Part shown: piece by piece, positions 33,442 to 51,516 of the stretch | How the letters are laid out: every line of letters begins with the position of its first letter | Position numbering within the stretch: the first letter of the stretch is position 1 | Assembly (NCBI RefSeq): GCF_006547065.1 | Contig: NZ_CP041243.1 | Location: 372,001 to 436,000, forward strand | Direction of reading: 5' to 3' | Length of the DNA: 64,000 nucleotides | Source: Brevundimonas sp. M20 | GTDB lineage: Bacteria; Pseudomonadota; Alphaproteobacteria; Caulobacterales; Caulobacteraceae | Notes under the pieces: model-generated | Told to the model about the DNA's origin: nothing | Databases searched by the model: none | The model's input: only the letters and a program-made list of their open reading frames with translations | Program-made: the position numbers and the translations under genes

Positions 33442-33450
33442 GCTGGCGAA

Positions 33451-33747
33451 ATGGGACGAGATGAAACGATACAGGCACTCCGCCGGCTAGCGCCTGTCCT
33501 GGCAGCCCGTGGGGTCGAGCACCTCTATTTGTTCGGCTCCGTTGCCCGCAATCGCGCTGGTGAAGCGTCCGACGTTGACCTGGCGTTCGACGTCGCTCCG
33601 GATACCGTGTTTGACGCGTTCGATATGGGCGGTGTGGTGATGGACTTGATGGGGGCTCTTGGCCAGAGGGTGGACCTCGTCGAGCGCCGGTCTATGTCGC
33701 CCGAGTTCGCCGCACGCATCGCGCCGGACATCGTCCGAATATTCTGA
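33451..33747 (+). CDS. MNT-type minimal nucleotidyltransferase
   Basis: This 98-residue protein has the nucleotidyltransferase signature G-S-x10-D-x-D ('LFGSVARNRAGEASDVDLAF'). This is the MntA/NTase-fold antitoxin family, which usually pairs with a HEPN RNase toxin and AMPylates it. No HEPN gene is adjacent: the next gene is on the opposite strand and belongs to the secretion system. It is therefore an orphan. Its last 90 bases recur in degraded form at 51385-51477. Confidence 0.8.
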   Translation: MGRDETIQALRRLAPVLAARGVEHLYLFGSVARNRAGEASDVDLAFDVAPDTVFDAFDMGGVVMDLMGALGQRVDLVERRSMSPEFAARIAPDIVRIF

Positions 33748-33750
33748 GCT
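33657..33750 (+). repeat. left copy of island-flanking direct repeat
   Basis: The 3' end of the MNT gene. The stretch around GACCTCGTCGAGCGC and CGGTCTATGTCGCC is repeated in the same orientation at 51385-51477, with about four mismatches over the best 48 bases and more beyond. Confidence 0.65.
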
Positions 33751-33790
33751 GTATGCGACTGAAGATCATATGACAGTCTGGCGGCCACGA

Positions 33791-34231
33791 TTACCCGCCA
33801 GATACATCGTTCGATGCCGGTGCTGGGGCAGGCGCAAAAAGAGCGAGCGCCCGATCACCGGTCGGACCCCGGAGCAGGACGGTCCGTCCTCGTACGGACA
33901 CCAGTTTCCAGCCGTCCAGTTCCTCTCCAGACCGGACACGGATGACCTCGCCGTCGCTGCCCTTCAGGTAGGCCGTCGAACCCGCGATCCCGACCAGTGT
34001 CGGGGTTTGTACAGCATCGGCGACCGGCTCGGTCCGGAGGGCCCCCAGGGAGAAGGGGAAGACGGTGAGGCGCGTGGACGGGCGGGTCTCGAATGTCGGG
34101 CCGTCGAACCGGGCCTGCGCTGGCGCCTGCGCCGAGGCGGGTTCCGGCTGCGGCCACAGAAGTAATCCGAGGGTGAGCGCTGCGCATCCGCCGAGGAGCG
34201 CCGGGAGCAGATAGCGTCCGGCGATCTTCAT
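33791..34231 (-). CDS. gspC: T2SS inner-membrane connector, GspC-like
   Basis: This 146-residue protein has one N-terminal membrane anchor ('LLPALLGGCAALTLGLLLWP'), a Pro/Ala linker, and a small beta-rich periplasmic domain with 'TLVGIAGSTAYLKGSDGEVI' and 'VRSGEELDGWKLVSVRGRTV'. This resembles the homology-region of GspC, which touches the secretin. It lacks a PDZ domain. It is the last gene of the minus-strand operon and its ATG overlaps the preceding stop (ATGA). The call depends partly on context. Confidence 0.65.
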   Translation of the reverse strand: MKIAGRYLLPALLGGCAALTLGLLLWPQPEPASAQAPAQARFDGPTFETRPSTRLTVFPFSLGALRTEPVADAVQTPTLVGIAGSTAYLKGSDGEVIRVRSGEELDGWKLVSVRGRTVLLRGPTGDRALALFAPAPAPASNDVSGG

Positions 34232-34710
34232 GCGACGACCATCAGCAGTACGAGCGTCACTTGACCTCGCCCTTCGGCGCCCCGAGCCAGGACCAGCGAT
34301 TCAAGTCGAACGGCCTCCCTGTTCACCGCCACCCAGTTCGCGACGGAACCGACGGCCAGGGCGTCGCCGGATCCGGTGATGCGCATCTCCGCCAGTTTGA
34401 GGCCTCCCCCCAAGGGACGGACGGAGACGGTGTCGGCGCCATTGACGAGAAGGCCGAGCTCTCCCAGCCGGACGTTGAGATACTCCGCAATCGCGGTCTC
34501 GGGATCTGTGCCCGGCGCGCGAACGAGGGGGTGCAGGGACGGGGGCCGGGGACTCTGCGCGGGAGGCGATGCGGACACGGGCGCGCCGGCCCGGGCGGCG
34601 CGGACCGCCATGACGTCGCCGACCACGGCGATGAGGGAGGCGAGGGTGACAAGGCCGAGGCCGACCGCAGCCACCGCAGCCGCGCGCCTGAACCAGACCG
34701 GCGGGATCAT
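34228..34710 (-). CDS. gspM: T2SS assembly protein, GspM-like
   Basis: This 160-residue bitopic protein has a membrane helix at about residues 10-35, a Pro-rich linker, then a ferredoxin-like periplasmic domain ('SVRPLGGGLKLAEMRITGSG', 'VANWVAVNREAVRLESLVLA'). GspM partners GspL on the inner-membrane platform. Overlaps of four bases with both neighbours point to translational coupling. Confidence 0.68.
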   Translation of the reverse strand: MIPPVWFRRAAAVAAVGLGLVTLASLIAVVGDVMAVRAARAGAPVSASPPAQSPRPPSLHPLVRAPGTDPETAIAEYLNVRLGELGLLVNGADTVSVRPLGGGLKLAEMRITGSGDALAVGSVANWVAVNREAVRLESLVLARGAEGRGQVTLVLLMVVA

Positions 34711-35468
34711 CGGCAGGTCTCCTCACCAAAGAACACGCCTTGCGGCGCGCCGCCGCTGGCCGGTTGAGCCTCGGCGCCGAGCGTCTCCAGTCGCGCGATG
34801 TCGGCGGTGTTCTCCGGGGTGAAGGTCACCTGGCGTGTGTCGGCCGAAAGATTGAGGACGGGGACCGGCTGGGTCCCGATCGCGCCGCCGACGCACAGCA
34901 GCCGGGTGGAAGCATCCGTGCGCTCCAGGGCGGCCCAATCCGCCAGGGCGGCGTTACGCTCACGGGCGTCCCGCGTCCGACGGGCGGTCTCGCGTTGGGC
35001 CTCCGTGATCTCCGGCAATCGCTGCGCCTTCCATTGGTCGGCGCGCATCTGGCCGGCGAGCGCGACCGCGGCGAGGCCGAGCGCGATCAGCGCCGCCCGC
35101 GGCGCGTGGACCAACCAGCGGGCCTCGCGATCATCGACGGCGAAGATATTGCGGAACCGGAAGGTCGCCTCGACCCCATCGACAGATCGGGTGGCTGTGA
35201 TCGCCCGGCGGGAGGCGAATGCAGGGTTCTGCAGCGCCGACCGCCTGAGGATGCCGAGCGCATAGCCCGTCTCGGCGCCGGTTGTTTTCAGGCGAACGAG
35301 ATCGAAGACGACATCCTTGGGCGGCAGGGGCGATAACCGATCCAGTTGCAGGCGCACGATCGCCCGGGCCTGACGCAGCGAGGTCGTCGGCAGGCTGACG
35401 ATGCGGGTCATCACCTCCAGGCGGGGGGAGGCGGCCAACTCGAGGTTCAGGTCCTGTTCGGGCGGCAT
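34707..35468 (-). CDS. gspL: T2SS platform protein, short GspL-like
   Basis: This 253-residue protein has a cytosolic N-terminal part with 'ARAIVRLQLDRLSPLPPKDV', typical of the GspL/PilM-N group. A membrane helix spans about 124-144, and a coiled periplasmic segment follows ('AQRETARRTRDARERNAALA'). A full GspL is about 400 residues with an actin-like fold; this one is clearly shortened at the N-terminus. It should link the ATPase GspE to GspM. It overlaps the pseudopilin gene upstream by 22 bases. Confidence 0.65.
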   Translation of the reverse strand: MPPEQDLNLELAASPRLEVMTRIVSLPTTSLRQARAIVRLQLDRLSPLPPKDVVFDLVRLKTTGAETGYALGILRRSALQNPAFASRRAITATRSVDGVEATFRFRNIFAVDDREARWLVHAPRAALIALGLAAVALAGQMRADQWKAQRLPEITEAQRETARRTRDARERNAALADWAALERTDASTRLLCVGGAIGTQPVPVLNLSADTRQVTFTPENTADIARLETLGAEAQPASGGAPQGVFFGEETCR

Positions 35469-35821
35469 GACTGACTGACACTGTCAAACTCGCACCGCTC
35501 GGGCAGGGTGCAACGATAGGGGCGTTCGGGGGGCGACGAGGCGGGGTCTTCCGCGCGGCAGGTCGGGACGGCCCGATCCGCCAGCCCGGCCTGGGCGAGC
35601 GCCAGCCGGTGGGCGCTCCGCCCGAGCGCGGCGTAGGCCGCGCCTGCGCCGACCATCAGGATGGAGGCGACCGACATGGCGATCATGAGCTCGAGGACGG
35701 TGTAGCCGGCGCGGGCGGCGCCACGGCGTCCACGACCAGGTCCTGGCCGAACCGCCGGTCCACGGTGATCCGGATGCGCCGCGCGGCGGACCCGTCGGCG
35801 TCGAGACTTTCGTAGGTCCAT
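35447..35821 (-). CDS. minor pseudopilin (GspJ/GspH-like)
   Basis: This 124-residue protein has a prepilin-type cleavage site 'ARAG|YTVLELMIAMSVAS', with Glu at mature position 5, so it is processed by a prepilin peptidase and joins the pseudopilus tip. The leader of about 39 residues is unusually long and Arg-rich, because the only ATG (35821) lies 139 bases inside the upstream gspI gene. A non-ATG start or reinitiation is possible. The C-terminal region is short, with cysteines in 'CTLPERCEFDSVSQSC'. The position after gspI suggests GspJ. Confidence 0.65.
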   Translation of the reverse strand: MDLRKSRRRRVRRAAHPDHRGPAVRPGPGRGRRGAARAGYTVLELMIAMSVASILMVGAGAAYAALGRSAHRLALAQAGLADRAVPTCRAEDPASSPPERPYRCTLPERCEFDSVSQSCRPNRT

Positions 35822-36069
35822 GGGCGTCCATCCGTGCTTCCGGATTGCTGCCCGTCAGGACGAACGCCGGCGTAAAGATCCTCGTAAAGATCGTCGGCGA
35901 TCCGCATGGCGGTCAAGCGATCCTTTGCTTGCGCGAGGCGAGTCACCGTCGTCGCCGCCAGACCGACGGCGGCGGCGACGCCCAGGGTCATGACCGCCAG
36001 CCCGGCGAGGGCGTCGACCGCCAGATAACCGCTTCGACGGGACCGGAGGTCAGACGGCAACGGCGTCAC
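35683..36069 (-). CDS. gspI: minor pseudopilin GspI-like
   Basis: This 128-residue protein has a prepilin-like N-terminus 'RRSG|YLAVDALAGLAVMTLG', in which mature residue 5 is Asp instead of the usual Glu. After the hydrophobic helix, 'AQAKDRLTAMRIADDLYEDL' corresponds to the conserved GspI segment. It overlaps gspF by 20 bases upstream and the next pseudopilin by 139 bases downstream. Confidence 0.65.
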   Translation of the reverse strand: MTPLPSDLRSRRSGYLAVDALAGLAVMTLGVAAAVGLAATTVTRLAQAKDRLTAMRIADDLYEDLYAGVRPDGQQSGSTDGRPWTYESLDADGSAARRIRITVDRRFGQDLVVDAVAPPAPATPSSSS

Positions 36070-37240
36070 CGATCGCGAGAAGCCCCTGGAAGACCAGCAT
36101 GGTGATCAATCCGACCATCGCGCCGACCAGGATGATCACCAGCGGGGTCATGATCGACAACAGCCGTTCGACGTTCTCCTGGGCGCGCGCGGCCAGCAGG
36201 GCTGAGGCGTTCTGGAGCGCCTCCGCGGCCCGTCCGGACTGTTCGCCCATCGTCACATAGTGGAGCAGGTCCGCGGGCGTCTGGGGAATGGCGCTCAGGA
36301 TCTCTGACAGCCGCGCGCCCTCCATCAGACGATCATCCTGGCCGGCGAGGGCGCGGCTGAGCCAGTCCACCGTGACCGGATCGCGGGCGAGCCGCCAGGC
36401 GGGCGCGAGGGGAACCCCGGCGTGCAGCATGACCGCCAGGCGGGACGCGAGGTTGGCGAAGACGAAGTCCCGCAGGGGAGAAACGCGGCCTCGCATTCCA
36501 AGTCGGGACAGCAAGCCAAGCGTGAGCCTGCGCAGGCGGGCCGAGAGGACCAGGGCGCCGGCGCCCAGGCCAAGGCCTGCGGCTATGACGGGGGTCGCCG
36601 CGCGGACCATGAGGCCGAAGGTGATGACCGCCTGGGTCTGGGCGGGAATGTCCTGCCCCAGGCCTTCGAAGGCGGGCTCCAGGGCCGGCAGGACGGCGTA
36701 GGCGTAGATGCCGATCGCGCCCAGGGCGACCGCGATCACGAAGCCAGGATAGAGGCCCAGGGTGATCAGGCGACGCCCCAGCTGGTCCATCGCGGCCAAA
36801 GAGGCAGCGCCGGCGGCGAGCACCTCTGTCTGACGGCCGGAGGCCTCGCCGCCGCGCGCCAGGGACTGCAGGAGCCGCGCCGGCGCGCCGGTGGCGACGC
36901 CGAGGGCGCGTGAGAGTGGTTCGCCCTCGATCAGCCGACGGCGGATCTCCCGGATGATGGCGGCGACCTTCGGGGTTTCTCGGGCTTCGAGCAGGCTCAG
37001 GGCCGGGCCGATGGCCATGCCGCTCTGCATCAGTTGCGCCATGTCGCGGCCCAGCCGCGCGGCCTCGGCGTTCGACAGGCGAAGCGAGCTCTGACGCTGG
37101 AACAGGGCGGGGCGGATCCGGACGGGGTGCAGGCGGCTCTCGATCAGGCGATCGCGCAGCGCCGCGGCGGAGGCGGCGTAGCTCACCCCCGTCTGGTGTC
37201 GGCCTTCAGGGGTCAGCACCCGGTAGCGAAAGGCCTTCAT
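36050..37240 (-). CDS. gspF: T2SS inner-membrane platform protein GspF
   Basis: This 396-residue protein has two duplicated GspF domains. The N-terminal 'FRYRVLTPEGRHQTGVSYAA' is standard. The first domain is at about 70-190 ('GRDMAQLMQSGMAIGPALSL') and the second at about 270-390 ('LASRLAVMLHAGVPLAPAW', 'MGEQSGRAAEALQNASALL'). There are three membrane helices. GspF transmits ATPase motion to the pseudopilus. Its start overlaps the gspE stop (ATGA). Confidence 0.93.
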   Translation of the reverse strand: MKAFRYRVLTPEGRHQTGVSYAASAAALRDRLIESRLHPVRIRPALFQRQSSLRLSNAEAARLGRDMAQLMQSGMAIGPALSLLEARETPKVAAIIREIRRRLIEGEPLSRALGVATGAPARLLQSLARGGEASGRQTEVLAAGAASLAAMDQLGRRLITLGLYPGFVIAVALGAIGIYAYAVLPALEPAFEGLGQDIPAQTQAVITFGLMVRAATPVIAAGLGLGAGALVLSARLRRLTLGLLSRLGMRGRVSPLRDFVFANLASRLAVMLHAGVPLAPAWRLARDPVTVDWLSRALAGQDDRLMEGARLSEILSAIPQTPADLLHYVTMGEQSGRAAEALQNASALLAARAQENVERLLSIMTPLVIILVGAMVGLITMLVFQGLLAIGDAVAV

Positions 37241-38925
37241 CGGTCAGCCAGCCGCCAGGCGTCGCCCCAGTCGACCAGGCCTTGCGCGGACTGGGACAGG
37301 GCGTCCTGGCGCAGGCTTGCGTAGCCCGTTTGGCGCGGGAGGGTTTCGCGGAGCGCGGAGGCCGGGGCCCCGACGCCGATCAGTTCGCTCACCTCTGGCG
37401 TGCAGACCATCAGCTCGGTGATCGCCCGCCGACCACGCCGCCCGGTTCCCCCGCAGGCCGGGCAGCCCTGGGCGCGGCCGACGCGTGGAAAGCTTGGTAG
37501 CCCTGCGTCCGCAAGGGCCGCGCGTTCCGGGACGTCGAGCGGCTCCAGGGTGTGGCAGTGGGCGCAGAGCTGGGCCGCGAGCCTCTGGGCCATGACGCCG
37601 ATCAGGGCGTCGCCCAGCAGGTAGCGCTCGACCCCCATGTCGATCAGCCGCGACGGCGTGGTGGCGGCGTCGTTGGTGTGCACAGTCGCCAGCACAAGGT
37701 GTCCGGTCAGGCTGGCCTGGACGGCGAGCCGCGCGGTCTCCGTGTCGCGGATTTCGCCGACCAGGATGACGTCGGGATCGTGTCGCAGGAAGGACCGCAG
37801 GGCGGTGGAGAAGGTGAAACCGGCGGCTTCGTTGACCTGGCTTTGCAGGATGTCCTCGAAGACGTATTCGACCGGATCCTCGACGGTCAGGATCTTCTGG
37901 CGGGAGGAGGCCAGCCGACGAAGGCCGGCGTAGAGGGTGGTGGTCTTGCCGCTGCCGGTGGGACCGGTCACCAGAAGCAGGCCGTGGGTGCGTTTCAGGA
38001 GCTGGTCCAGCCCGGCGGTCACCGCATCGCGCAGGCCCAGCCGTTCAAGGGAGTACTCCACGTCGCGCCGCGTCAGCAAACGGACGACGAGGGACTCGCC
38101 GAACACTGTCGGCGTGGTCGAGATACGGACATCGACGGGCACGCCGCGGACGTTGATGGTGGTGCGGCCGTCTTGGGGCGCACGGCGCTCCGCGACGTCC
38201 AGATCCGACAACACCTTGATGCGTGCGATCAAAGCCGGGCCGATTTCGCTCGGCAGTCGATCCTGGTCCTGCAACTGGCCGTCGATGCGCAGGCGCACCC
38301 GGGTGTGATCGATTTTCTGCTCGATGTGGACGTCGGAGGCGTTCAGCAGGAAGGCGCGCTCGAGGATCTGTTCGGAGATTCGCACCACGGGGGCGTCGCG
38401 GGCGTTGTCGCGGAGTCTTTCGGCGTCATCAAGCCAGGTCGCGGCGATCGGCGCGGCTGTTTGCGGGAGATCTATTGCATCGACCGAGGTCTGGGTCTGG
38501 CGCCAACCGCTGAGCGTGATCGTGCGAATGCGTATCTCGCGCCCCAGGGCGAACCAAAGCGCCTCCCGGGTGGCCGCGTCCCCCGGATCGACCAGGCCCA
38601 GGCACCATTCGCCGGTGTCGTCCGCCATGGCGATCGCGTAGCGATCCTGCAGGAAGCGGGCGTTGAGGCCGGGCAACTCAAGGGGTTCGATCGGCCGGGT
38701 GTCCGGCCAACGCGGGGCGTCATACAACTGACTGCAGGCGTCCGCGATCGCCTCTTCGGTCGCCAGGCCCAGCAGGCTCAGGGCGACGGCCAGCGGTTGG
38801 CCGGAGGCCCGGCTGGCGCGGGTCGCGCGATCCACGGCGCTGCCGGACAGGCCGAGCGTCCCGGCCAGGTCAGCCCGCGCATGGTCGGGCGCCGGCAGTT
38901 CGAACTCATCAGACGTTACAGTCAT
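37237..38925 (-). CDS. gspE: T2SS assembly ATPase GspE
   Basis: This 562-residue secretion ATPase has an N-terminal GspE domain ('ALSLLGLATEEAIADACSQL'), Walker A 'VTGPTGSGKTTTLYAG' (about 320), an Asp box 'ILTVEDPVEYVF', Walker B 'RHDPDVILVGEIRDTETA' and a His box 'VLATVHTNDA'. A tetracysteine zinc site has CAHC ... CPAC at about residues 455-495. All catalytic motifs are intact. It is the first gene of the minus-strand operon, divergent from gspG with about 70 bases between. Confidence 0.95.
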   Translation of the reverse strand: MTVTSDEFELPAPDHARADLAGTLGLSGSAVDRATRASRASGQPLAVALSLLGLATEEAIADACSQLYDAPRWPDTRPIEPLELPGLNARFLQDRYAIAMADDTGEWCLGLVDPGDAATREALWFALGREIRIRTITLSGWRQTQTSVDAIDLPQTAAPIAATWLDDAERLRDNARDAPVVRISEQILERAFLLNASDVHIEQKIDHTRVRLRIDGQLQDQDRLPSEIGPALIARIKVLSDLDVAERRAPQDGRTTINVRGVPVDVRISTTPTVFGESLVVRLLTRRDVEYSLERLGLRDAVTAGLDQLLKRTHGLLLVTGPTGSGKTTTLYAGLRRLASSRQKILTVEDPVEYVFEDILQSQVNEAAGFTFSTALRSFLRHDPDVILVGEIRDTETARLAVQASLTGHLVLATVHTNDAATTPSRLIDMGVERYLLGDALIGVMAQRLAAQLCAHCHTLEPLDVPERAALADAGLPSFPRVGRAQGCPACGGTGRRGRRAITELMVCTPEVSELIGVGAPASALRETLPRQTGYASLRQDALSQSAQGLVDWGDAWRLADR

Positions 38926-38995
38926 TCCGACGCCGATGGACTCGGCCCCCGCTCCCCTATAGTCGCTTGATTAGCGCGTCGGTTCTGGGGGAGCC

Positions 38996-39454
38996 ATGGG
39001 GGATATCGGCAAAGGGGTGCGATCGGAGCGATCCGGTCGGCGATCAGGCTATACCCTGACGGAAATGCTGGTGGTTCTGGTCATCATCGGTTTGATCAGT
39101 GCGATCGTGGTTCCGCAGACCCTGGGTCAGATGGATCGCGCCAAGGTTCGGGCCGCGCGTCTGAAGATGGAGAGCGTGGCCGCGGCGCTGGAGATGTATT
39201 CGGCGGACCTGATGCGTTATCCGAGCGCCGAAGAAGGTCTGGCGGCCTTGACCGACGCCCCGGCGGGCGTGGCGGACTGGGCCGGTCCGTATCTGTCAGA
39301 CAAGGCCTTGCTGAAAGACCCTTGGGGCGCGGACATCGTCTATGCGCCGCCGGCTGCGGCAGGCGACCGGTTCACCCTCACCAGCTATGGGTCTGACAAG
39401 TCGCCCGGCGGCAACGGGTTCAAGCGCGACATCACCTTGCAGGCGGCCCAATGA
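38996..39454 (+). CDS. gspG: T2SS major pseudopilin GspG
   Basis: This 152-residue protein has the class III signal 'RSG|YTLTEMLVVLVIIGLIS' with Glu5. The GspG-specific features 'MYSADLMRYPSAEEGLAAL', 'KDPWGADIVYAPP' and the calcium-loop-like 'YGSDKSPGGNG' are all present. It polymerises into the pseudopilus that pushes cargo through the secretin. A GGGGGAG site precedes the ATG, and a CTATAG -10-like box is at 38957. Its stop overlaps the gspD start (ATGA). Confidence 0.95.
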   Translation: MGDIGKGVRSERSGRRSGYTLTEMLVVLVIIGLISAIVVPQTLGQMDRAKVRAARLKMESVAAALEMYSADLMRYPSAEEGLAALTDAPAGVADWAGPYLSDKALLKDPWGADIVYAPPAAAGDRFTLTSYGSDKSPGGNGFKRDITLQAAQ

Positions 39455-41472
39455 CCTTGAAGACCCGCGCGCTTATAGGCGCGGCGATGTGTGTTCTTGC
39501 CGGCTGTGAAGCGCCGCGCGCCATCCGACCGGACCTGGCGGTCATTCCCCAGAGCCGCCCGGCGGCGCTGACCCCGGCGGTCGAGGATACGACCGCGGCC
39601 GTGGATGAGGACGCGCTCGCATGGCGCATCGAAAACGCCGCCGCGGCGCCGTCGGCGCCCGCGCCGCGCGCATCACCGCAACGGTCGATGAATGTCGTGT
39701 TCGACCAGGCGCCGGTGGCGGCCGTCGTGGATGCGGTGATCGGCCAGTCCTTGCGCAAATCCTATCGTCTGGATCCCTCGGTGCAGGGGTCTTTGACGCT
39801 CAGCCTGGTCGGCCGGATGAGCGAGGCGGAGGCGCTGGCGAGCTTTGACCGCGCCCTGCGAAGCATCAATGCCGCTGTCGTTCGCGAAGGCGCGGGATAT
39901 GCCGTGGTGCCGTCCGCCCAAGCGACCCGGTTCAACGGCTTGCCGGTTGCGGGGGACAGCGCCGATGTCCTCGCGGGTTCCGCTGTCTATCAGGCGCGAT
40001 CGATCAGCGCCGCCGAGATCGCCCGGCTGCTGGAGCCTTTGGCGGGGGAGGGGGCGGTCGTTCGGGCCGACGCCTCGCGCGAACAGGTCTTCGTCACCGG
40101 TGATCCCACCACGGTCAGCGCTCTGGTACGCACCGCGCGGTCGCTCGATGTGGATTGGCTCCAGGGCAAGAGTCTGCAGTTCTTCCCCGTCCGTCATGCA
40201 ACCCCGGCGGACATCGCTTCGGACATCCGCCAGGTCTTCGGCGGTCCGGACGGCCCGCTGGGCAGCCAGATCCAGTTCATCGAGCTGAACAGGCTGAACG
40301 GCCTGCTGGTGATCGCCCGGTCTCCGGCCGGCCTGGACCGGGCTTCCGAGTGGATCGCCCGCTTCGACCGGTCGCCGCCGCCCGCGGCGCGGCGTTTGCG
40401 ATCTATTCCGCTGGCCAACCTTGAGGCCGAACAGTTTGTCACAACCCTGGGCTCCCTTCTCGGCGCCGCGACCAGTGTGACGCCGACCGCCGGGCAACAG
40501 CCCGGCGGACAGCCATCGACGCCCGCGCCCGCGGACACGACGGCCGGCGCCACGCCGGCGGCGGTCGCGGGGGGCGCGGCCGGAACCTTGCGGTTGACGG
40601 CCGACCCCAGAACGAATTCCCTGATCCTGCTGGCCGACGACGCGGAGTATCGCAATGTCGTCGACATCGTGCGCGAGCTGGACGCGCCGCCGCCCCAGGT
40701 CCTGATCGAGGCGACCATCGCCGAGGTCACCCTGAATGACCGCCTGCGCTTCGGCGTCCAATGGTTCCTGGATGATGGCGATCTGACCGGCGGCTTCTCC
40801 TCGACCAGCAATGACGAGGCCGCGCCCAGCTTCCCGGGCTTCTCGTTAAGCTATGCGACGTTGGACATACGGGCCGTGCTGAACGCCCTGTCGACCGTCA
40901 CGGATGTTCAACTGGTCTCGACTCCGAGGGTCCTGGTACTGTCCAACGAGACCGCCGAACTCCAGGTTGGCGACCAGGTGCCGATCATCACCCAGACCGC
41001 GGTCGGCCTGAACAACGATAGTCGCATCCTCAACAGCGTCCAGTACCGCGACACGGGCGTCGTTCTCTCCGTAACGCCACGGGTCACCGAGAGCGGCCGC
41101 ATGTTCATCCAGATCGAGCAGGAGGTGAGCGAGGTTGCGGGCACCACGACCTCCGACATCGATTCCCCCACCATCCAGCAGCGGCGGCTGAACACCCGTA
41201 TCCAGGTCGAGGACGGGCAACTGGTGGTGCTGGGCGGCCTGCTGCGGTCGAGCACCAGCCTGGGCGACACCGGCGTGCCTTATCTGAGCCGCATCCCGGC
41301 GCTGGGGGCCTTGTTCCGGTCGCGCGACAACAACCAGCGCCAGACCGAGCTGGTCATGTTCCTGCGCCCGAAGGTGATCCGGTCGCGGGGCGATATCGAA
41401 GCGGTGACCGCGGAAATGGTCAGCCGTCTCCAGGCCCTGAGTCTGCCCGTTGAAGCGCCCGTCGCGCCCTGA
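39451..41472 (+). CDS. gspD: T2SS outer-membrane secretin GspD
   Basis: This 673-residue protein begins with a lipoprotein signal (lipobox 'VLAGC'), so the secretin may be self-piloting. The N0 domain ('VVFDQAPVAAVVDAVIGQSL') and the N1-N3 domains follow, including 'FFPVRHATPADIASDIRQVF' and 'ADPRTNSLILLADDAEYRNV'. The C-terminal secretin barrel carries 'STPRVLVLSNETAELQVGDQ', 'RVTESGRMFIQIEQEVSEV' and 'DTGVPYLSRIPALGALFR'. A Pro/Ala/Thr-rich linker lies near 345-375. No separate pilotin gene is seen. Confidence 0.95.
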   Translation: MTLKTRALIGAAMCVLAGCEAPRAIRPDLAVIPQSRPAALTPAVEDTTAAVDEDALAWRIENAAAAPSAPAPRASPQRSMNVVFDQAPVAAVVDAVIGQSLRKSYRLDPSVQGSLTLSLVGRMSEAEALASFDRALRSINAAVVREGAGYAVVPSAQATRFNGLPVAGDSADVLAGSAVYQARSISAAEIARLLEPLAGEGAVVRADASREQVFVTGDPTTVSALVRTARSLDVDWLQGKSLQFFPVRHATPADIASDIRQVFGGPDGPLGSQIQFIELNRLNGLLVIARSPAGLDRASEWIARFDRSPPPAARRLRSIPLANLEAEQFVTTLGSLLGAATSVTPTAGQQPGGQPSTPAPADTTAGATPAAVAGGAAGTLRLTADPRTNSLILLADDAEYRNVVDIVRELDAPPPQVLIEATIAEVTLNDRLRFGVQWFLDDGDLTGGFSSTSNDEAAPSFPGFSLSYATLDIRAVLNALSTVTDVQLVSTPRVLVLSNETAELQVGDQVPIITQTAVGLNNDSRILNSVQYRDTGVVLSVTPRVTESGRMFIQIEQEVSEVAGTTTSDIDSPTIQQRRLNTRIQVEDGQLVVLGGLLRSSTSLGDTGVPYLSRIPALGALFRSRDNNQRQTELVMFLRPKVIRSRGDIEAVTAEMVSRLQALSLPVEAPVAP

Positions 41473-42130
41473 ACGGGAGAGCCGGCAGGGATACATCTCC
41501 CTGCTCGCCATGAGCCTGACGGTCGGTCTGGCGATCTTCGCCGGCGCGGTGGCGACGGGGACGGCGTCCTATATCCGGGCGACCGGCAGTGAGGCGGGGA
41601 CGATCCGTGAGCGCATCGGGATGGAAAGCGCGGCGGCGACCGTTCTTGGGCGAGCGGCTGAGGGTTTGACAGTCCAGGCCGAGACCGAGGTCGCGATCAA
41701 TGGGGTGACCTATCGTGTGTCGCTCACGCCGACGAGTCAGAAGGTCGATCTTGCGACGGATAATGAAACGGCGCTGACCCAAGCTGCTGAGGCGGTGGGG
41801 ATCGTCGTGGATTCCGAACTGGCGCGATCAGCGACGGGGTTGGCGAACCTCTCAAATCTGCTGAGGCTGAATGCGTCCGACGAGGATTGCCTGCGGGCCC
41901 GCTTCACCTATGGGCGCGGCGGGCAATCGCGGAGCGAGGGTGATCGTCCGCCTGCGCTGACCGTTGCTCCGGGTGATCAGCTCGATGTTCGGGTCGCTTC
42001 AAACGTCGTGCCGGGCACGGTGCTCTGGATGCGAGCGCGGTTTCTTGACCAGGCGTGGGCCTTGCATGACTACCGCCGGCTGCAAGGCGTCACTGTCTGT
42101 GAGACTCAGGGCTCGCCCGGTCCACACTGA
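41450..42130 (+). CDS. gspK: T2SS pseudopilin, GspK-like
   Basis: This protein of about 226 residues has an N-terminal prepilin-like helix 'SRQG|YISLLAMSLTVGLAI' that lacks Glu5, as GspK proteins do. 'ERIGMESAAATVLGRAAEG' corresponds to the post-helix GspK segment and 'GVTYRVSLTPTSQKVDL' to its first strand region. GspK caps the pseudopilus tip with I and J. It starts at TTG 41450 inside the gspD end. Its last 25 bases overlap the convergent YD-repeat gene. It is shorter than the usual GspK (about 300). Confidence 0.65.
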   Translation: MKRPSRPERESRQGYISLLAMSLTVGLAIFAGAVATGTASYIRATGSEAGTIRERIGMESAAATVLGRAAEGLTVQAETEVAINGVTYRVSLTPTSQKVDLATDNETALTQAAEAVGIVVDSELARSATGLANLSNLLRLNASDEDCLRARFTYGRGGQSRSEGDRPPALTVAPGDQLDVRVASNVVPGTVLWMRARFLDQAWALHDYRRLQGVTVCETQGSPGPH

Positions 42131-42915: not shown

Positions 42916-42923
42916 CGGCGACC

Positions 42924-43280
42924 TCAGTTCGGAACGGCTTTGTTAGCTTCGGCGAGCGCGGGCGAGAGTTCGGCTTCCATGGCGCGACCGGCGTCCTGGT
43001 TGGCGCGCCATTCCTGCTCGGTCGGGAGGCGCGGAGGCCTTCCGCGGAATTCGGGCTGTAGAAGCCAGGCGCCCAAGCTGACCGCGAGAGCGACGGTCGC
43101 CAGTCCGCTGCCGATGATCGCAACTCTCTTCCATGCAACGGCCTTCAGACGGTCCCGCCAGCTTGTCGCCGAGTGGAACTGCTCCATGTCCAGGATATGA
43201 GCCCATTGATGCCGAATGACGGATCCGCAGGCGCGCGCTCGCGCCCACAGTCCTGTCAGCAATGCGTTCAAACGCGCCAT
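42924..43280 (-). CDS. single-pass membrane protein of the RHS locus
   Basis: This 118-residue protein has one membrane helix at about 55-75 ('VAIIGSGLATVALAVSLGAW'). The basic N-terminal part is probably cytosolic, and the short Pro/Glu-rich periplasmic tail includes 'RLPTEQEWRANQDAGRAMEA'. No family recognised. It sits eight bases upstream of the mini YD-repeat gene and is likely co-transcribed with it, and it is divergent from the RHS gene. It could be an assembly or anchoring factor; this is a positional guess. Confidence 0.55.
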   Translation of the reverse strand: MARLNALLTGLWARARACGSVIRHQWAHILDMEQFHSATSWRDRLKAVAWKRVAIIGSGLATVALAVSLGAWLLQPEFRGRPPRLPTEQEWRANQDAGRAMEAELSPALAEANKAVPN

Positions 43281-43321
43281 ACATCCCCCGCCGGCAAGCG
43301 AGCAGACTAAAGCTGAGCCTT

Positions 43322-43342
43322 ATTGCAGGGACAAGCTGCAAT
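43322..43342. promoter_or_regulatory. perfect inverted repeat in the divergent RHS promoter region
   Basis: ATTGCAG, seven bases, CTGCAAT. It lies in the 150-base space between the divergent membrane-protein gene and the RHS gene. It is a candidate operator controlling both directions. Confidence 0.4.
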
Positions 43343-43430
43343 TTCTCGTTGAGGGGTGGATTTTCTCTCTTTCAAAGCGAGGGCGGTTGAGCTTGTCTGT
43401 AAGCGTAGCTGTTGCGCGGTGGGGGCGTTG

Positions 43431-46400
43431 ATGGGTCTCGGTGTTGGGAAGGTCCGGCAGGTTGTTCGCCGGATGGGACTTCGTCGCGTCATGCTGGCGG
43501 GTCTGGCCGGGACGATGGCGCTGGGCGCCTCGGCGGGCGCCTTCCTGTCGGTGTCGAAGACCGGCGCGCGCGCGCAAGGGACGCCAGGCTACACGCTCTC
43601 CACCTACACGGCGTCTGACCTCCCCGGGTTCCGGCTCTCGGTTCAGCAATCTCTCGTCTCGCCCGGCAGCGGTGATCTGGCGACGGTCTATGGTTCCCCA
43701 ACCTCGCCGACGGCCGGTGCGCCGAGTGCGCGGATCACTGCATTGGCCCGAGCGCTGGAGAACGATCCGGATCGCATCTACCAGTTCGTGCACAACACCA
43801 TCCTGTTCGAACCGCAGTTCGGCCTGCACAAGGGGGCGGACGGCGTGCTGCTGGACGGCTCGGGCGGGTCGTTCGACCAGTCGCAGTTGATGGTCGAGCT
43901 GCTGCGGGCCTCAAGCTATCAGGCGCGCTTCGTGCTGGGCCAGGTCAACCTGTCCGGCGCGGACGCCAAATCGATCCTGCGCGTCAGCAATGCGAGCCAA
44001 GCCTGTCTCCTGCTGGCGGCGGCGGGCACGCCGGCGACGGTGAACGGCGGGACGGCCTGCGGATCGATGAGCGGCGACGTCACCGGGGTGACGATGCTGC
44101 ACCTGTGGGTCGAGGCCAATATCGGCGGCAGTTGGTATGCCTTTGATCCGTCGCTGAAGCTGAACGACAAGATCACCGGCATCGACCTGTGGGACGCGGC
44201 GGGGACCAATGCGGCCTCGGCCTGGAACAACATCTCATCCGGCGTGTCGATCGGCGGCGATAATCTGACCGGCGCCAACGCTGCGAACATCCACGCAGAC
44301 CTGGAAGCCTACGCGACTGCGTTACAGAGCGACCTGATCAACAGCCACACCGACAAGTCGCTCAAGCAGCTGACCGGCGGTTGGGAGATCGTCCGTACAG
44401 AAGCCGCGCCGCGCGATGCGACTCTGGTTCGACAGGCTGCCGTCTCAGCCCGCTGGACCGGGGAGGTACCGGCCCCCTATCGCGCGACCCTCCGTGTCGA
44501 AACTGCCGGCTTCGACCACACCTTCGACCTGCCCGGCATATATGGGTGGCGGGTGCAGGCCCAACTCCAAGGCACTCTTGAAAGCAGCAAGCTCGTCGTC
44601 GCTGTCCGCAAGCAGGACCACCTCGACGCGAGCGCCAACGCCTATTTCGGGACCGGTGGGCCGAACGCCGCCTGCAATACCGAACTCGTGAAGTGCGGCG
44701 CCTTGCCGCTCGCCGCGGAGTTCGCCGCCCAGGATCGTCGCCTCGACCTGACCATCAACCATCCCTACGCCGCGCGCGCGACCGGATCGCCGACGACCGC
44801 CCTCGGAAGTTTCGGCGACGAAAAGGTGTCCAAGGCCCTCGAAGTGGGCAAGCGGGCGGACTTGTTGGTCCGTACCGGAGGCGGAGACGGGGATCGCCAC
44901 AGCGTCTGGTCGGCGGCGATGGATCCGGTGCAGGCGCACCGCATCATCCCTGCCGGCAACGCCTACGAATGCGCGTCCCAATCGGGGAACACCCAGACTG
45001 ACCCGCATGCGTGCGACGGCACCCAGGCGAGCGACTGGCGCTATTGGCGCCAGACAAGTCAGTACGGCCTCCGTCTTTTCCCGTTGGGCGAAAACGCCGT
45101 CGCGGAGATGGGTACGAAGAAGGACGCGCTGATCAACAGCTGGACGGACCTGTTCGACAACACAGTCCGGGTGATGGAAGGGCTGTCCGGAGCCCGCATC
45201 TTTCATCAGCATTCGGTTGGGATCGCCATCACCACTGACGGCATGGAGAATGTGCTCGACATCGACACCTCCGTCGGCGTCATGGCGATGGGGACGGATT
45301 CTCCCCACCACGTCATGGGCGCCCTCGCCGCTCTTGGAGCGATGGAAGAGGGCTTGGCGGTCAGTCAGATCGCGCGCGACCGAAACATGTTTACGGGCGA
45401 GTTGCCTGGCGTGAACGCTTCGCATCGGTTCGGCGAGGGGGCGGCCGGGTTGAAGGTGTTGTCGGCTCCTGGCGCGACTTCAAGCCTTCCGTCGAGCGTC
45501 CATCAGGATACGCGAACCCAGATCGAGCGGTATCTCGACCGGGGGTTCGAGGTGGTGGCCACGACTGCAGGGACGGAGAACGCGTTCTTCGCTCGCAGGA
45601 CGGACGGCTCAGAGCAGGCCTGGATCATCCGTACGCCGGTGCGAGCGCACGAGGACAATCTCGATCCGCGCTCCGCCTTCCGAAAGGGAGCTGAGTCTGA
45701 TGTGCCCAATCCGCTGGATTACCTGGGTAAGGCCGAAGGCCGCCGCATCGCCGCCAATGTCGCCGGCGCCCATCTCGGCGCGGTCGATCTCAGATCGGGA
45801 TCCCTTTCCTTCAGCGAAGGCGCCGAGATCACCGTCGGACAGGGGGATTTTCCCTACAGCCTCAGCTTCTCGCGCAGTTACAGTTCGTCCGGCCCCGTGG
45901 AGGGACGAAGCGGCCTGGGAACGGGTTGGACCCATAACTGGGAGTCCTCCGTCTCCCAAAGTTCGGACGTTCACGCCTTCTTCCCTGAGGCCAGTGTCGT
46001 ATCGGCAGCGCCCATGCTGGTTACGGCGATGGTCGCTTTGCAGGCTGCCCGAACCGATACCCTCGAAGGGGCCGTCGTGGGAGGCATCGCGACCTCCTGG
46101 CTGAATGATCAGGCCTTCGCAAACGTTATAAACGTCAACGGCGGCGGGCAATCCGCCCGTTTCGTGCGCTTGGTCAGCGGCGCTTGGCACAACCCGGCTT
46201 CACCGACGGAGACACTGAGCAATATCGGGCCCGGCGTCTCCTATGCGCGCACCCTCGATTGGACGCTGTCGGACAGGTCCATCATGCATTTTGAGGAAAT
46301 TCCCTACACTCCCGGGACTAATCGTTGGGATCATGTGTACGGCGAAGAGAACGGCCGGGCGGCCATGACGTCGTGGAGCTTCCCGACCGGTGTTGTGATC

Positions 46401-49400
46401 ACTCTCGCCTACACCGGCCAGAATGCGACCAACTCGCCGTCGTTGACGGCGGTCTCCAACAATCTCGGCGCTGTGCTGACGTTTACCAACAGCGCCGCGC
46501 CGGAGATGACGGACCAGGACGGCTGCGAGGCGACGGCGGCCCTGATCGATTACGATGGAGGACGCCGCGCGGCCCAGCAGTCCTGTCACGAGGGACGGCG
46601 CTTTGGCGGTCGTATCATGAAGGTGAGCGCCGGGGCGGACGAGGTCCGCTTCGAGTACACGGGGCAGTGCCCCAAGAATGTGAACTTCTGCGCCTTCGAG
46701 CTGATTTCGGCGCATCGGCAAGGCCTGCGTAAGCGCTACTACAGCTACGGCGCACCAGCGGGTGCTCTGGCGTATCCCGCCGCCGCCATCGATTATCAGC
46801 AGGTTCTGACGCAGGTCGTGGACGAGGGTGTTGCGACGCCGCGGGCCCGGTTCGACTGGCGGGCGGTGGGCGGTCAGGTGGCGCCCTATGTGGCGGAATC
46901 GTTCGACGCCCAGAACCGCAAGACGGTCTATCACTCCTCGACCTTCACCTTCTCCTCGGCGCGGGACGCCGAAGACGGCGTGGTGCGTCAGGCCTATGAC
47001 GAGGATGGTCGGCTGATCGCGTCGGCCGACGCTTTGGGCCGCACCTCGCGAGCGAAGTACGACGGCCCGGGCCGGACCATCGAGATCAAAACCCCTTACG
47101 GCGACCGGACGACGTTCGAGTTCGACCGCTGGGGCGATCTGCGGGCGCGTGAGCAGACGCCGATCGACAACTGCATGGCAGGTTACACAACCCCCCAGCA
47201 ACAGACCTGGGCCGCCAACTACTGGTGCGCCACCATCAGGATCGAGGCGGACTATGATCCGGTCTGGCACAAGCCGACCCTGATCCGCCTGCCGGCGACG
47301 GCGGCGGACCCGACCCGGCCGGAATGGACGTTGAGCTACAACAGCAAGGGCCTGGTCGATGTGATGACCGGACCCAAGGTCCCGGATGCGACCAACAACA
47401 ACGCCCTGACCCATCCGGTCTGGCGAACCTGGTACGACAGCTACGGTCGTCCGAACCGCACACAGGATCCGACCGGCGTGGAATCCGCCATGACCTATGG
47501 CGGTGGGACCAATCCGGCCTTCTGCCTCACCCGGCAGGTCCAGGGCTCCCAGGTCTCCGGCGGCACGATCTCCACGGACTTCACCTGTGATCCCGTCGGC
47601 AATGTGCTGACCACGACGGTGGGCGGCGCCACGACGACGGCCCACTACGATTCCATGCGCCGCAAACGTCTGGAGACGGGACCGGCCGGGACCAACATCG
47701 CGACCAAATGGTTCTATGACGACAACGGCGACCAGACCCTGGTCGAGCGCTGGGACTCCAACACTTCGACCTGGCAGGCGACGACGACCACATACTCCGC
47801 GACTCACCAGCCGCTGACCGTGACGGACCCGTCCGGCGACATCGCCCGCACCTGCTATGATCTGGTCGACCGGCCAGTGATGACCATTGATCCGGAACTG
47901 CGGGCGACGCGGACGGTCTACAACCTCGCGGGCCAGCCGACGGCCATCCATCGCTTCCAGCGCGCAAGCTCCAGCGGCTGCACGGCCGCGACTGAACTGC
48001 CGACCGACGTGAACTTTACCGAGACCCGCTGGCGCCGGTTCGAGTACAACGTCGGCGGAATGCAGGCGGCGGAGATCGACGCCAACGGTAATCGCACAGA
48101 GCAGCAGTACGACGGTCTGGGCCGTCAGGTTCGCACGATCTACGCCAACACCCTTCAGGCGTGGACGGCGAGCGACCAGCGCGGTCAGGTCGTGGCGCGC
48201 AAACAGCCCGCGGGCCATCTGGTCAGCCTGTTCTATGACGCCATGGGCCGCGACTTCCATGTGCGCGAGTTCGGCGCCGCCGAGACCGGTTACGTCTATC
48301 GTGGGCGCAACACGGTCGCCGGCTATGATCTGGCGGGTCGTCCCGCCTACCGGGACGTCTCGACCCAGACGACGAAGACCGCGACCTTCGACGACAGCCT
48401 GCGTCGGGATGTTCGCAACTACACCTACAACGACGGACTGAAGCGGCTGACGGCCGAGCAGTGGCGTCCCGAAGGGACGGGCGGCATCAGCTATACGACC
48501 GGCTACGAGTACGGGGACGGACGCGGCAACCGCACCGCGATCACCCAGCCTCAGTCGGGCGGGGGAAGCTGGACCATCGACTACATCTACGATCTGGCCA
48601 ATCGGGTGCAGACGGTCAGCTTCCCCAGCGCCTCGGGCACGCAGACGGTCAACATCAGTCATGACTCCCTCAACCGACGCACGGGCGTCGATCGGCCCGG
48701 CTCCGCGGCGGACACGACCTACGCCTATGACGTCGACAACGATCTGACCGGTATGAGCCACGCCTTCGTGGCGGGGACTGGCCCGGGCGCGACCAGCTTC
48801 ACCTATGGCCGGGACCAGTCCGGCAAGGTGACCTCCATCGGCATCAACCAGCCGGTGTTCGAGTGGATGCCGACGCTGGGTTATGGCCGCACCTATGGTC
48901 CGGCCTCGAACATGAACCGGATCAGTTCGGTCAGCGATGCGGTCGAGAGCCGAGGGCTGAGCTGGAACGGGGACGGAGACCTGAGCCAGGAGGTGCGCAC
49001 GCCGGTCGGCGGCGGGGCGGCGGTGACTTGGACCTACAGCTGGACCTACGGCCACCGTCTGGCCGTCGTGACCAACAACGCGGCGGTTAATCCGCTGACG
49101 GCCAGCTACCACTATGACAGCGACGACCGGCGCACCAAGAAGGTGGTCAACGGGGTCACCACCCGCACGATGTGGTCCGGAACCGACGAGCTGGCGGAGT
49201 ACGACGTCAACGGCGATCTGATCCGCAGGTTCATCCCGGACGGGACGGGCGGCATGGATCAGCGGCTGGCGACGGTGACGGCGTCAGGTGCTGTTTACTG
49301 GCACCACACCGACCATCAGGGCTCCGTGATCGCCACCTCGGGCAGTGACGGGCAGACGGTGGGGACGGCGACCTACTCGCCGCACGGGGAAGGCGCGCCG

Positions 49401-50171
49401 CCGGCCCAGAGCCCATTCGGCTACACCGGGCGGCAGTACGACCCGGAGACAGGGCTCTACTACTACCGTGCTCGGTACTACTCACCCTACCTGGGCACCT
49501 TCCTTTCCATGGACCCCATCGGGACCAAGGATGATCCGAACCTCTATATCTACGTGGGGCTGGACCCCACGAATGCGACGGATCCGACGGGGAGGCAACT
49601 CGCTGCTATAGGCCGGGCAATCAGGAATGTGCAGCAGGTCGGCGGCCCGATAGTTGATAGCTATCGGAGAGGAATTCGGGATTGGATTGACGGAGTTGAC
49701 TCCCAAGAGGCCCGAGACACAGAAGCTGTTGTCACGGGCGATGTTGTTGGCTTGTTGACCGGTGGAAACCTACGTGCGGACGAGAGGGTCGTCGTGGATG
49801 CGATGGTTGCAGGCGCAACTGGTGGCGTACTCGGCGGAGCTCGTCGTGGAGGGGGGGAGCAGGGAGGCCGGTCGGGAAGAGGGCAACGTGGTCCACAACA
49901 TCACAGGCCAAACCCCGAAGCTTCTGGGCCGCACTCTCAGTTTCGAACGAATCCAGAAAGCGGGCGGGTGTCTTCGTACGAGACCTACGATTATCCATCG
50001 GAGGGGCGTGGTGTCCGAGTTGATATAGAGGGGAGTTCGCATGGCGGTATCCCGACGCCCCATGCGGTTGATACTACGGTACATGTAAATCCGAACGATC
50101 CGTCCGCTAGTCGCGTGGTGGAAGGTCCTACTCGTCCTGCGCGTCCAGACGAAATACCTAGGGGGAGGTGA
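43431..50171 (+). CDS. Sec-exported RHS polymorphic toxin with transglutaminase-like domain and Ntox24-like tip
   Basis: This protein has about 2246 residues. The N-terminus holds an export signal ('RVMLAGLAGTMALGASAGAF'). A transglutaminase-like domain follows at about 100-245 ('DRIYQFVHNTILFEPQFG', 'MLHLWVEANI', 'YAFDPSLK'); its usual Cys position reads Gly-Ser-Phe-Asp-Gln, so it is probably non-catalytic. At about 788-840 is an RHS-entry domain ('GDFPYSLSFSRSYSSSGP'). A long YD-repeat shell follows ('YDGLGRQVRTIYAN', 'YDLANRVQTVSF'). The RHS core ends with 'FGYTGRQYDPETGLYYYRAR' and the self-cleavage-type 'DPTNATDPTG' at about 2043. The last 85 residues ('RVSSYETYDYPSEGRGVRVD', 'HGGIPTPHAVDTTVHVNP') resemble polymorphic toxin type 24. 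GTG at 43356 and ATG at 43473 are alternative starts. Confidence 0.88.
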   Translation: MGLGVGKVRQVVRRMGLRRVMLAGLAGTMALGASAGAFLSVSKTGARAQGTPGYTLSTYTASDLPGFRLSVQQSLVSPGSGDLATVYGSPTSPTAGAPSARITALARALENDPDRIYQFVHNTILFEPQFGLHKGADGVLLDGSGGSFDQSQLMVELLRASSYQARFVLGQVNLSGADAKSILRVSNASQACLLLAAAGTPATVNGGTACGSMSGDVTGVTMLHLWVEANIGGSWYAFDPSLKLNDKITGIDLWDAAGTNAASAWNNISSGVSIGGDNLTGANAANIHADLEAYATALQSDLINSHTDKSLKQLTGGWEIVRTEAAPRDATLVRQAAVSARWTGEVPAPYRATLRVETAGFDHTFDLPGIYGWRVQAQLQGTLESSKLVVAVRKQDHLDASANAYFGTGGPNAACNTELVKCGALPLAAEFAAQDRRLDLTINHPYAARATGSPTTALGSFGDEKVSKALEVGKRADLLVRTGGGDGDRHSVWSAAMDPVQAHRIIPAGNAYECASQSGNTQTDPHACDGTQASDWRYWRQTSQYGLRLFPLGENAVAEMGTKKDALINSWTDLFDNTVRVMEGLSGARIFHQHSVGIAITTDGMENVLDIDTSVGVMAMGTDSPHHVMGALAALGAMEEGLAVSQIARDRNMFTGELPGVNASHRFGEGAAGLKVLSAPGATSSLPSSVHQDTRTQIERYLDRGFEVVATTAGTENAFFARRTDGSEQAWIIRTPVRAHEDNLDPRSAFRKGAESDVPNPLDYLGKAEGRRIAANVAGAHLGAVDLRSGSLSFSEGAEITVGQGDFPYSLSFSRSYSSSGPVEGRSGLGTGWTHNWESSVSQSSDVHAFFPEASVVSAAPMLVTAMVALQAARTDTLEGAVVGGIATSWLNDQAFANVINVNGGGQSARFVRLVSGAWHNPASPTETLSNIGPGVSYARTLDWTLSDRSIMHFEEIPYTPGTNRWDHVYGEENGRAAMTSWSFPTGVVITLAYTGQNATNSPSLTAVSNNLGAVLTFTNSAAPEMTDQDGCEATAALIDYDGGRRAAQQSCHEGRRFGGRIMKVSAGADEVRFEYTGQCPKNVNFCAFELISAHRQGLRKRYYSYGAPAGALAYPAAAIDYQQVLTQVVDEGVATPRARFDWRAVGGQVAPYVAESFDAQNRKTVYHSSTFTFSSARDAEDGVVRQAYDEDGRLIASADALGRTSRAKYDGPGRTIEIKTPYGDRTTFEFDRWGDLRAREQTPIDNCMAGYTTPQQQTWAANYWCATIRIEADYDPVWHKPTLIRLPATAADPTRPEWTLSYNSKGLVDVMTGPKVPDATNNNALTHPVWRTWYDSYGRPNRTQDPTGVESAMTYGGGTNPAFCLTRQVQGSQVSGGTISTDFTCDPVGNVLTTTVGGATTTAHYDSMRRKRLETGPAGTNIATKWFYDDNGDQTLVERWDSNTSTWQATTTTYSATHQPLTVTDPSGDIARTCYDLVDRPVMTIDPELRATRTVYNLAGQPTAIHRFQRASSSGCTAATELPTDVNFTETRWRRFEYNVGGMQAAEIDANGNRTEQQYDGLGRQVRTIYANTLQAWTASDQRGQVVARKQPAGHLVSLFYDAMGRDFHVREFGAAETGYVYRGRNTVAGYDLAGRPAYRDVSTQTTKTATFDDSLRRDVRNYTYNDGLKRLTAEQWRPEGTGGISYTTGYEYGDGRGNRTAITQPQSGGGSWTIDYIYDLANRVQTVSFPSASGTQTVNISHDSLNRRTGVDRPGSAADTTYAYDVDNDLTGMSHAFVAGTGPGATSFTYGRDQSGKVTSIGINQPVFEWMPTLGYGRTYGPASNMNRISSVSDAVESRGLSWNGDGDLSQEVRTPVGGGAAVTWTYSWTYGHRLAVVTNNAAVNPLTASYHYDSDDRRTKKVVNGVTTRTMWSGTDELAEYDVNGDLIRRFIPDGTGGMDQRLATVTASGAVYWHHTDHQGSVIATSGSDGQTVGTATYSPHGEGAPPAQSPFGYTGRQYDPETGLYYYRARYYSPYLGTFLSMDPIGTKDDPNLYIYVGLDPTNATDPTGRQLAAIGRAIRNVQQVGGPIVDSYRRGIRDWIDGVDSQEARDTEAVVTGDVVGLLTGGNLRADERVVVDAMVAGATGGVLGGARRGGGEQGGRSGRGQRGPQHHRPNPEASGPHSQFRTNPESGRVSSYETYDYPSEGRGVRVDIEGSSHGGIPTPHAVDTTVHVNPNDPSASRVVEGPTRPARPDEIPRGR

Positions 50172-50175
50172 TTTT

Positions 50176-50616
50176 ATGAACTTCGATGATTTGATCGCGA
50201 GAGGGCTGATATCAACGCTGGATGCCTGGAATGAGGGTGCTGTGAGTAAAATTGGGCTGGAAGACTTGTCTTCTTTGTCGGGGGGCTCGGGATTATTTTT
50301 ATCTTATGCATCGTTGTTTAGCCCTAAGCTGACCGAAGTGGGGGGGGGTCACTTTCTATCTTTTAGGTTTGATGAAGGTATTTACTTAGAGTGGATTGGA
50401 TCTGGGCGCGCAATTAGCGATGTAGAACTTGTAATGAATCACGTTCACATGACTTATTTTGCTCAGGGCGAGGATGTTTCTATTGATGTTTTAGACAAAA
50501 TGGCCGAAGTTTTATTCCATTTCTGGAGTCTGGGTCTTCCGGCGGGGGTTTCCCCTGTTATCCTTGGCAAAGGAACCGTTGACGTTTCGGTGACATTTTT
50601 TACATCTTTGTCTTGA
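50176..50616 (+). CDS. putative cognate immunity protein of the RHS tip
   Basis: This 146-residue soluble acidic protein starts four bases after the RHS stop with a strong GGGGAGG site. Its base composition is much more A/T-rich than the rest of the window, typical of toxin-immunity pairs acquired by transfer. Blocks: 'FDDLIARGLISTLDAWNEGA', 'GHFLSFRFDEGIYLEWIGSG', 'ISDVELVMNHVHMTYFAQGE'. I recognise no named immunity family. The role is inferred from position, size and composition. Confidence 0.65.
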   Translation: MNFDDLIARGLISTLDAWNEGAVSKIGLEDLSSLSGGSGLFLSYASLFSPKLTEVGGGHFLSFRFDEGIYLEWIGSGRAISDVELVMNHVHMTYFAQGEDVSIDVLDKMAEVLFHFWSLGLPAGVSPVILGKGTVDVSVTFFTSLS

Positions 50617-50925
50617 TGGTTTATTTTGGTTTCTGGAACGTGTGTGCCCTATATTCTTTAGAGGGTTGCAGCCAGGCAAAGTGTTGCTCTCAAGGTGGTT
50701 GGCCAAGTGAAGACTATTTAGGGTGGTTGCAACTGGTGATTTGGTGGAAGCAGCGGATTGATACCAACGTAACTATCATGGGCGGTGATAAAACGGGGCG
50801 GTTTGTGCGTCTGGCGGATAGCAGTTTGCGCAACTCGAAATCGTCGAAGGAAGAGCTGATGGTCAGCACTCCGGCCCCAAGCTTCTGCCTTCATGACTGG
50901 ACCCAGTCACATGTGCAGCGGAACG

Positions 50926-51477: not shown

Positions 51478-51516
51478 CTTTAGGCAGCCGTGGACGACAG
51501 GCAGGGCGGACCCCGG

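Follow-up and report, generated by a model that had tools for sequence, protein, structure and literature searches.

In T6SS PAAR-Rhs effectors and in the TcB/TcC cocoon toxins, an RHS shell surrounds a C-terminal toxin; in TcB/TcC, one shell is formed from two polypeptides. The type II secretion system (T2SS) is an exporter of folded periplasmic proteins. To our knowledge, it is not settled how RHS toxins with a signal peptide get across the outer membrane.

RHS toxins with an inactive N-terminal transglutaminase (TGase) domain comprise a signal peptide, RHS repeats, and a C-terminal toxin domain (Ntox24 is among those listed), and the toxin gene precedes the immunity gene (Zhang et al. 2012, PMC3482391). 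In the passages of that work covered here, "T2SS" stands for the general secretory pathway, under which the signal-peptide RHS toxins are filed, and the section on gene neighbourhoods names T5SS, T6SS, T7SS, PVC, and MuF genes but not Gsp genes.

The window analysed, 64,000 nucleotides (C1:372001-436000) of the one-contig, 3.32 Mb genome of Brevundimonas sp. M20, shares with the RHS toxins of Zhang et al. (2012) the signal-like start, the apparently inactive TGase-like domain, the RHS repeats, the Ntox24 tip, and the order of predicted toxin then candidate immunity ORF. In contrast, the linkage to a T2SS, a mini-YD partner, and the split RHS genes described below are absent from the passages covered of that paper. 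Our main reading, with a probability of roughly two in three, is that the genome gained an accessory, reduced T2SS along with the protein it mainly carries, an RHS polymorphic toxin exported by Sec.

Gene content of the locus

Positions 33791–42130 of the window encode a reduced T2SS, the second one in the genome, in two divergent blocks with a 70-bp gap between them. The genes follow the order C, M, L, J/H, I, F, and E on the minus strand (33791–38925) and G, D, and K on the plus strand (38996–42130). Overlaps between ORFs on the same strand range from 4 to 23 bp, with 139 bp between J and I.

The GspD secretin (39451–41472, plus strand) passes the TIGR02517 cut-off (424 bits for 351) and contains Secretin and N0 domains. 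The GspE ATPase (37237–38925, minus; T2SSE 1.5e-117), GspF (36050–37240, minus; T2SSF 8.4e-27), and the major pseudopilin GspG (38996–39454, plus; T2SSG 1.1e-29) match their Pfam families over the cut-offs. The last gene (41450–42130, plus) encodes a GspK-like minor pseudopilin of 226 aa with no Pfam match, assigned as the tip protein by its predicted fold: the top structural matches of its AF2 model are GspK/XcpX, with modest Z. A type IV pilus is rejected because the secretin is over the gspD cut-off, the ATPase has gspE as its top NCBIfam model (under the cut-off of that model), and the product of the last gene is predicted to fold like GspK. Two further minor pseudopilins are GspI-like (35683–36069, minus; TIGR01707 E 8e-4, under cut-off) and J/H-like (35447–35821, minus; N_methyl 2.9e-5 over residues 36–59), the true start of the latter being probably inside the annotated ORF.

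For GspC, GspL, and GspM, family matches are weak or absent, and homologues stand at matching positions in other loci. The GspC-like protein (146 aa; 33791–34231, minus) has weak family matches, and a PDZ domain was not found in it. The GspM-like (160 aa; 34228–34710, minus) and GspL-like (253 aa; 34707–35468, minus) proteins, without family match, are assigned by position, with homologues in the same place in loci L048 and L133; weak homologues of the GspL-like protein occur also in L053, L090, L100, and L149.

A complete-looking housekeeping T2SS, a point that the original prediction had left to be checked, is present at 1.50–1.52 Mb, and its GspC has a PDZ domain. With such a canonical system the island T2SS shares GspD, E, F, G, and the GspK-like tip protein; it differs by a GspC in which no PDZ domain was found, short GspL and GspK, no match for GspH, and GspD and GspE proteins that belong to a separate group (see below). 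Likewise, no prepilin peptidase is encoded within the cluster, whereas two A24 peptidases occur elsewhere in the genome, with a prepilin peptidase at the housekeeping T2SS; this fits the proposal, made from the window alone, of a reduced system that uses the peptidase of its host.

The T2SS genes are followed, in 42106–50616, by a mini-YD protein, a 118-aa ORF, a 2246-aa RHS protein, and a candidate immunity ORF. The mini-YD protein (42106–42915, minus) has a signal-like start, two YD strands, and two Big_9 domains. The putative 118-aa ORF (42924–43280, minus) has, in translation, one hydrophobic stretch and no Pfam match. The RHS protein (43431–50171, plus) has a signal-like start, a TGase-like domain, RHS repeats with an Rhs_assc_core (both by profile matches), and a 192-aa tail with the Ntox24 match. 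The TGase-like domain, which comes after the signal, is assigned by a Transglut_core match and a matching fold; as in the inactive-TGase RHS toxins, the catalytic residue appears to be lost, with no Cys in 23 aligned rows at the position that we take to be catalytic. The candidate immunity ORF (146 aa; 50176–50616, plus), named by position and composition only, has no homologue among 298 other genomes. The gene content thus bears out the arrangement first noted, a reduced T2SS directly adjoining an RHS protein with a signal-like start, a mini-YD protein, and a candidate immunity ORF.

A T6SS route is rejected for this genome: unlike what is expected with PAAR-Rhs effectors, there is no match for the sheath gene (VipB/TssC) in the one contig, while an E. 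coli positive control does match.

A second RHS gene is present in the same genome at G000:C1:2587476-2591176 (L016 9348-14251), with a 1582-aa open frame, an adjoining mini-YD-like frame, and no T2SS match in 19 kb.

The T2SS and the RHS gene lie in one inserted block

The block 31945–51711 (about 19.8 kb) is extra DNA in the host, since it is missing between gyrB and its neighbour in all of six same-genus stretches, hand-picked from gyrB matches. In these six, a homologue of 51712–52170 (minus) comes after gyrB (at most 30 bp away in five, about 1.1 kb in L217), with the methylase gene (52216–53370 in the window) next in four, and none has a T2SS or RHS HMM match. This single insertion, or island, holds HTH and nucleotidyltransferase genes, the T2SS, the mini-YD and RHS genes, the candidate immunity ORF, and a decayed RHS remnant.

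At its left end (32773–33747), a gene for an HTH-like protein (32773–33441, plus; a faint AbiEi-type match, to AbiEi_4, under cut-off) precedes that of a small nucleotidyltransferase-domain protein (33451–33747, plus; NTP_transf_2 / Polbeta). The last 85 nt of the latter (33672–33756) recur in a degenerate copy (51401–51485, plus; 81% identity), 17.7 kb apart and on both sides of the T2SS-RHS cluster, a possible trace of island formation.

Linkage from the RHS side

Homologues of the RHS N-terminal region (RHS_N, E <= 1e-15) are found in 3/385 genomes of the class and 16/299 of the order, the M20 genome being counted in both. T2SS genes D/E/F/G adjoin the RHS gene in five of the 17 other genomes (G510, G535, G071, G711, and G498), while in several of the remaining ones the locus ends at a contig edge.

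When the named collection is scanned with one peptide pattern from the TGase alignment, the result is 39 loci in 37 genomes, in part the same ones (L154 = G510, L171 = G071, and L184 = G711). T2SS D, E, or F genes occur in the fetched flanks of 12/39 (L153, L154, L161, L165, L167, L168, L171, L177, L178, L179, L184, and L189), and these same 12 are among the 25 loci with at least 8 kb upstream. By chance, about 0.23 linked loci of 25 are expected; P(>=12) is 1e-18 and P(>=11) 1e-16, values that treat the loci as independent and ignore shared ancestry. In L165 the secretin match is a weak one (E 8e-44) and its branch in the GspD tree is very long; excluding this locus, the counts are 11/39 and 11/25. 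A GspG-like match in L163 (5e-19), under threshold, is left out of the counts. The original prediction had staked itself on such a recurrence, and the recurrence is there.

The linked loci are titled Caulobacter, Maricaulis, Marinicaulis, Robiginitomaculum, Azospirillum, and Nitrospirillum, besides Brevundimonas, and the linkage is repeated in differing orientations and gene orders. Among the named RHS loci, the best match (L153, Brevundimonas sp. Ess09-07; 71%) has the order of the window, J-I-F-E/G-D-K/mini-YD/RHS. None of the eight gammaproteobacterial or melainabacterial RHS loci with at least 8 kb upstream is linked to a T2SS.

Linkage from the T2SS side

Of 100 relatives searched (60 of the same genus), two same-genus genomes, G030 and G040, have a GspE with 80% identity; in G030 a mini-YD gene adjoins K, and the contigs of both stop in this region. 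Forty T2SS regions were hand-picked from GspE match lists, blind to RHS. An RHS-type gene stands beside the T2SS in five of them (L049, L135, L136, L148, and L152), a mini-YD gene alone, at a contig end, in L047, and only short mini-YD-like matches are seen in L138 and L151. In L152 (G630:C1:2649500-2669499), the accessory T2SS is flanked on either side by RHS-type and mini-YD frames.

The trees, built by a quick method, contain 70 rows for GspE (after removal of five duplicates) and 67 for GspD (duplicate pairs L137/L199 and L050/L197 kept). For GspE, with L047 labelled as linked on its mini-YD gene alone and L090, L097, L100, and L102 entered through the RHS search, all 11 RHS-linked rows belong to a side of 22 rows (SH-aLRT 97), and there are none among the remaining 48, of which 24 were read in loci of about 3–4 kb only. 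The linkage takes 8 changes on this tree, for a mean of 10.4 after shuffling (10/500 shuffles as low). For GspD, where L203 and L204 are scored as linked from their place on the contig, one accessory group of 46 rows (97) takes in 17 of the 18 linked rows, L165 standing outside on its very long branch. Groups of 9 and 11 rows, the latter including the housekeeping T2SS, have no linked row (9/20 are pieces of about 2.2 kb with neighbours unread), and 11 changes are needed, for a shuffled mean of 16.1 (1/500 as low). Because the linked rows of both proteins cluster there, the linkage is, among the regions read and by these sequence trees, restricted to the accessory T2SS group, with several gains or losses.

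The accessory group could also export large beta-rich secreted or surface proteins generally, with RHS proteins as frequent passengers of a shared machine. Outside the genus, the closest T2SS (L133; 52% GspE, same layout) lacks an RHS gene in its 20 kb and has a large neighbouring frame with Peptidase_M1 domains. Other relatives adjoin Big_12 giants (L055 and L142), proteins with MBG_2 (L147) or apiosidase-fn3 (L134) domains, or frames of about 1900 aa (L051 and L150). We consider such sharing rather unlikely, since different branches of the accessory group each contain RHS-type genes and since, here, T2SS and RHS arrived in one block; moreover, the Big_12 neighbour in L142 may not need a T2SS because it has an autotransporter domain of its own. 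Open frames of about 1900 aa stand beside accessory T2SSs in L051, L052, L145, and L150; those of L051 and L150 were scanned and have no Pfam match. The original view of the T2SS as dedicated to the RHS toxin therefore stands in part: the linkage recurs, but the label "private" is unproven because giant proteins of other kinds stand beside related T2SSs and L133 is without RHS, to which the 0/8 of the gammaproteobacterial and melainabacterial loci is to be added.

Alternatively, T2SS and RHS genes could merely share an island, the RHS protein leaving by the housekeeping T2SS, by lysis, or never. The complete-looking second T2SS and the RHS modules without linked T2SS elsewhere agree with such hitch-hiking, which is nevertheless improbable given a linkage repeated in different genera, orientations, and gene orders, well above chance (12/25 for about 0.23), and, within the regions read, limited to the accessory group.

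The RHS tail and the split RHS genes

The GC content is 69% in the T2SS genes, 65% in the RHS gene outside its tail, 59% in the tail, and 44.5% in the candidate immunity ORF. Downstream of that ORF, a decayed copy (50954–51359, plus; 81–82% identity) of part of the RHS 3′ region (48819–49226) looks like a displaced older RHS end. Together, the low-GC tail, the ORF, and the displaced copy look like the outcome of a toxin-tip exchange. The tails of 22 relatives, compared by eye, differ between loci; of 10 scanned against Pfam, one matches (DUF6883). In another reading, the RHS protein would serve at the surface or in adhesion and not as a toxin, its tail and the next ORF forming no toxin–immunity pair. 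This would accord with the nine scanned tails without match, the Ig-type domains of mini-YD, and the surface anchoring proposed for inactive TGase domains in the passages covered of Zhang et al. (2012, PMC3482391), but is improbable in view of an Ntox24 match over its cut-off, tails that by eye vary between loci, and the signs of tip exchange.

Of the 34 loci with more than 1.5 kb upstream, 31 have an ORF with the two-strand motif close to the start of the RHS gene; in L187 this ORF is a neighbouring RHS frame, which leaves 30/34. The pattern is missing in L164, L177, and L180, the last two of which do give an HMM match. Mini-YD proteins may consist of about 100 aa or be extended by Big_9 or other tails. 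That mini-YD is so constant, whether or not a T2SS is close by, suggests that it is structurally a partner of the RHS protein.

In nine genes from six genomes (L094, L096, L097, L098, two in L101, L104, L166, and L177), the RHS protein is encoded in two frames. The second half aligns from residue 1364–1476 of the window RHS protein onward and has its own signal-like start (seven by script pattern; two, L094 and L096, by eye). In L096, the first frame aligns only up to residue 359, with a further RHS frame in between. Left out are the splits in L091 and L164, whose overlapping frames show no signal-like start, and in L107, where a wrong frame was paired. An assembly error could split a gene but would not add a signal. 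Two of the split loci, L097 and L177, adjoin a T2SS. Since two signals are present on two parts of one shell, the split genes suggest that the halves join in the periplasm before a T2SS-type export of the folded complex; the own signal-like starts of the halves set them apart from the two-polypeptide shell of TcB/TcC.

A proposed route and its meaning

Export of the RHS protein by the island T2SS is, as judged from gene content and linkage, the best explanation for these observations. The RHS and mini-YD proteins, with their signal-like N-termini, would reach the periplasm by Sec. There, the RHS shell would close around the tip, the TGase-like domain and mini-YD serving to cap, escort, or anchor it. 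The PDZ-less GspC, the N-domains of GspD, and the GspK-led pseudopilus would select the folded protein and drive it through GspD, powered by GspE/F, with pseudopilins processed by the prepilin peptidase at the other T2SS. Outside the cell or on its surface, the tip, a predicted RNase, would harm rival cells, and the product of the next ORF would protect the producer. Against this main explanation stand L133 without RHS, the 0/8 loci of gammaproteobacteria and melainabacteria, the 5/40 regions picked by GspE, the second T2SS, and the orphan immunity ORF.

More tentatively, and at somewhat less than even odds, the RHS shell would be assembled in the periplasm from separately Sec-exported parts (an RHS protein in one or two pieces plus the conserved two-strand mini-YD protein as cap or escort). 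It would then pass intact through the outer membrane by way of a T2SS subtype that was inherited with it and that has a reduced platform and a PDZ-less GspC, a T2SS counterpart of the two-component cocoon toxins.

The pairing of T2SS and RHS genes in distantly related bacteria points to what may be a little-studied exit route for such toxins, its novelty being judged against the passages covered of Zhang et al. (2012, PMC3482391) and general knowledge. The recurrent linkage supplies a candidate for the machine, a partner protein that is nearly constant, and RHS genes in split form, and the export route thereby becomes testable. If this is true, closed toxin shells with a mass of roughly 240 kDa (estimated from 2246 aa) would join the cargo of the T2SS.
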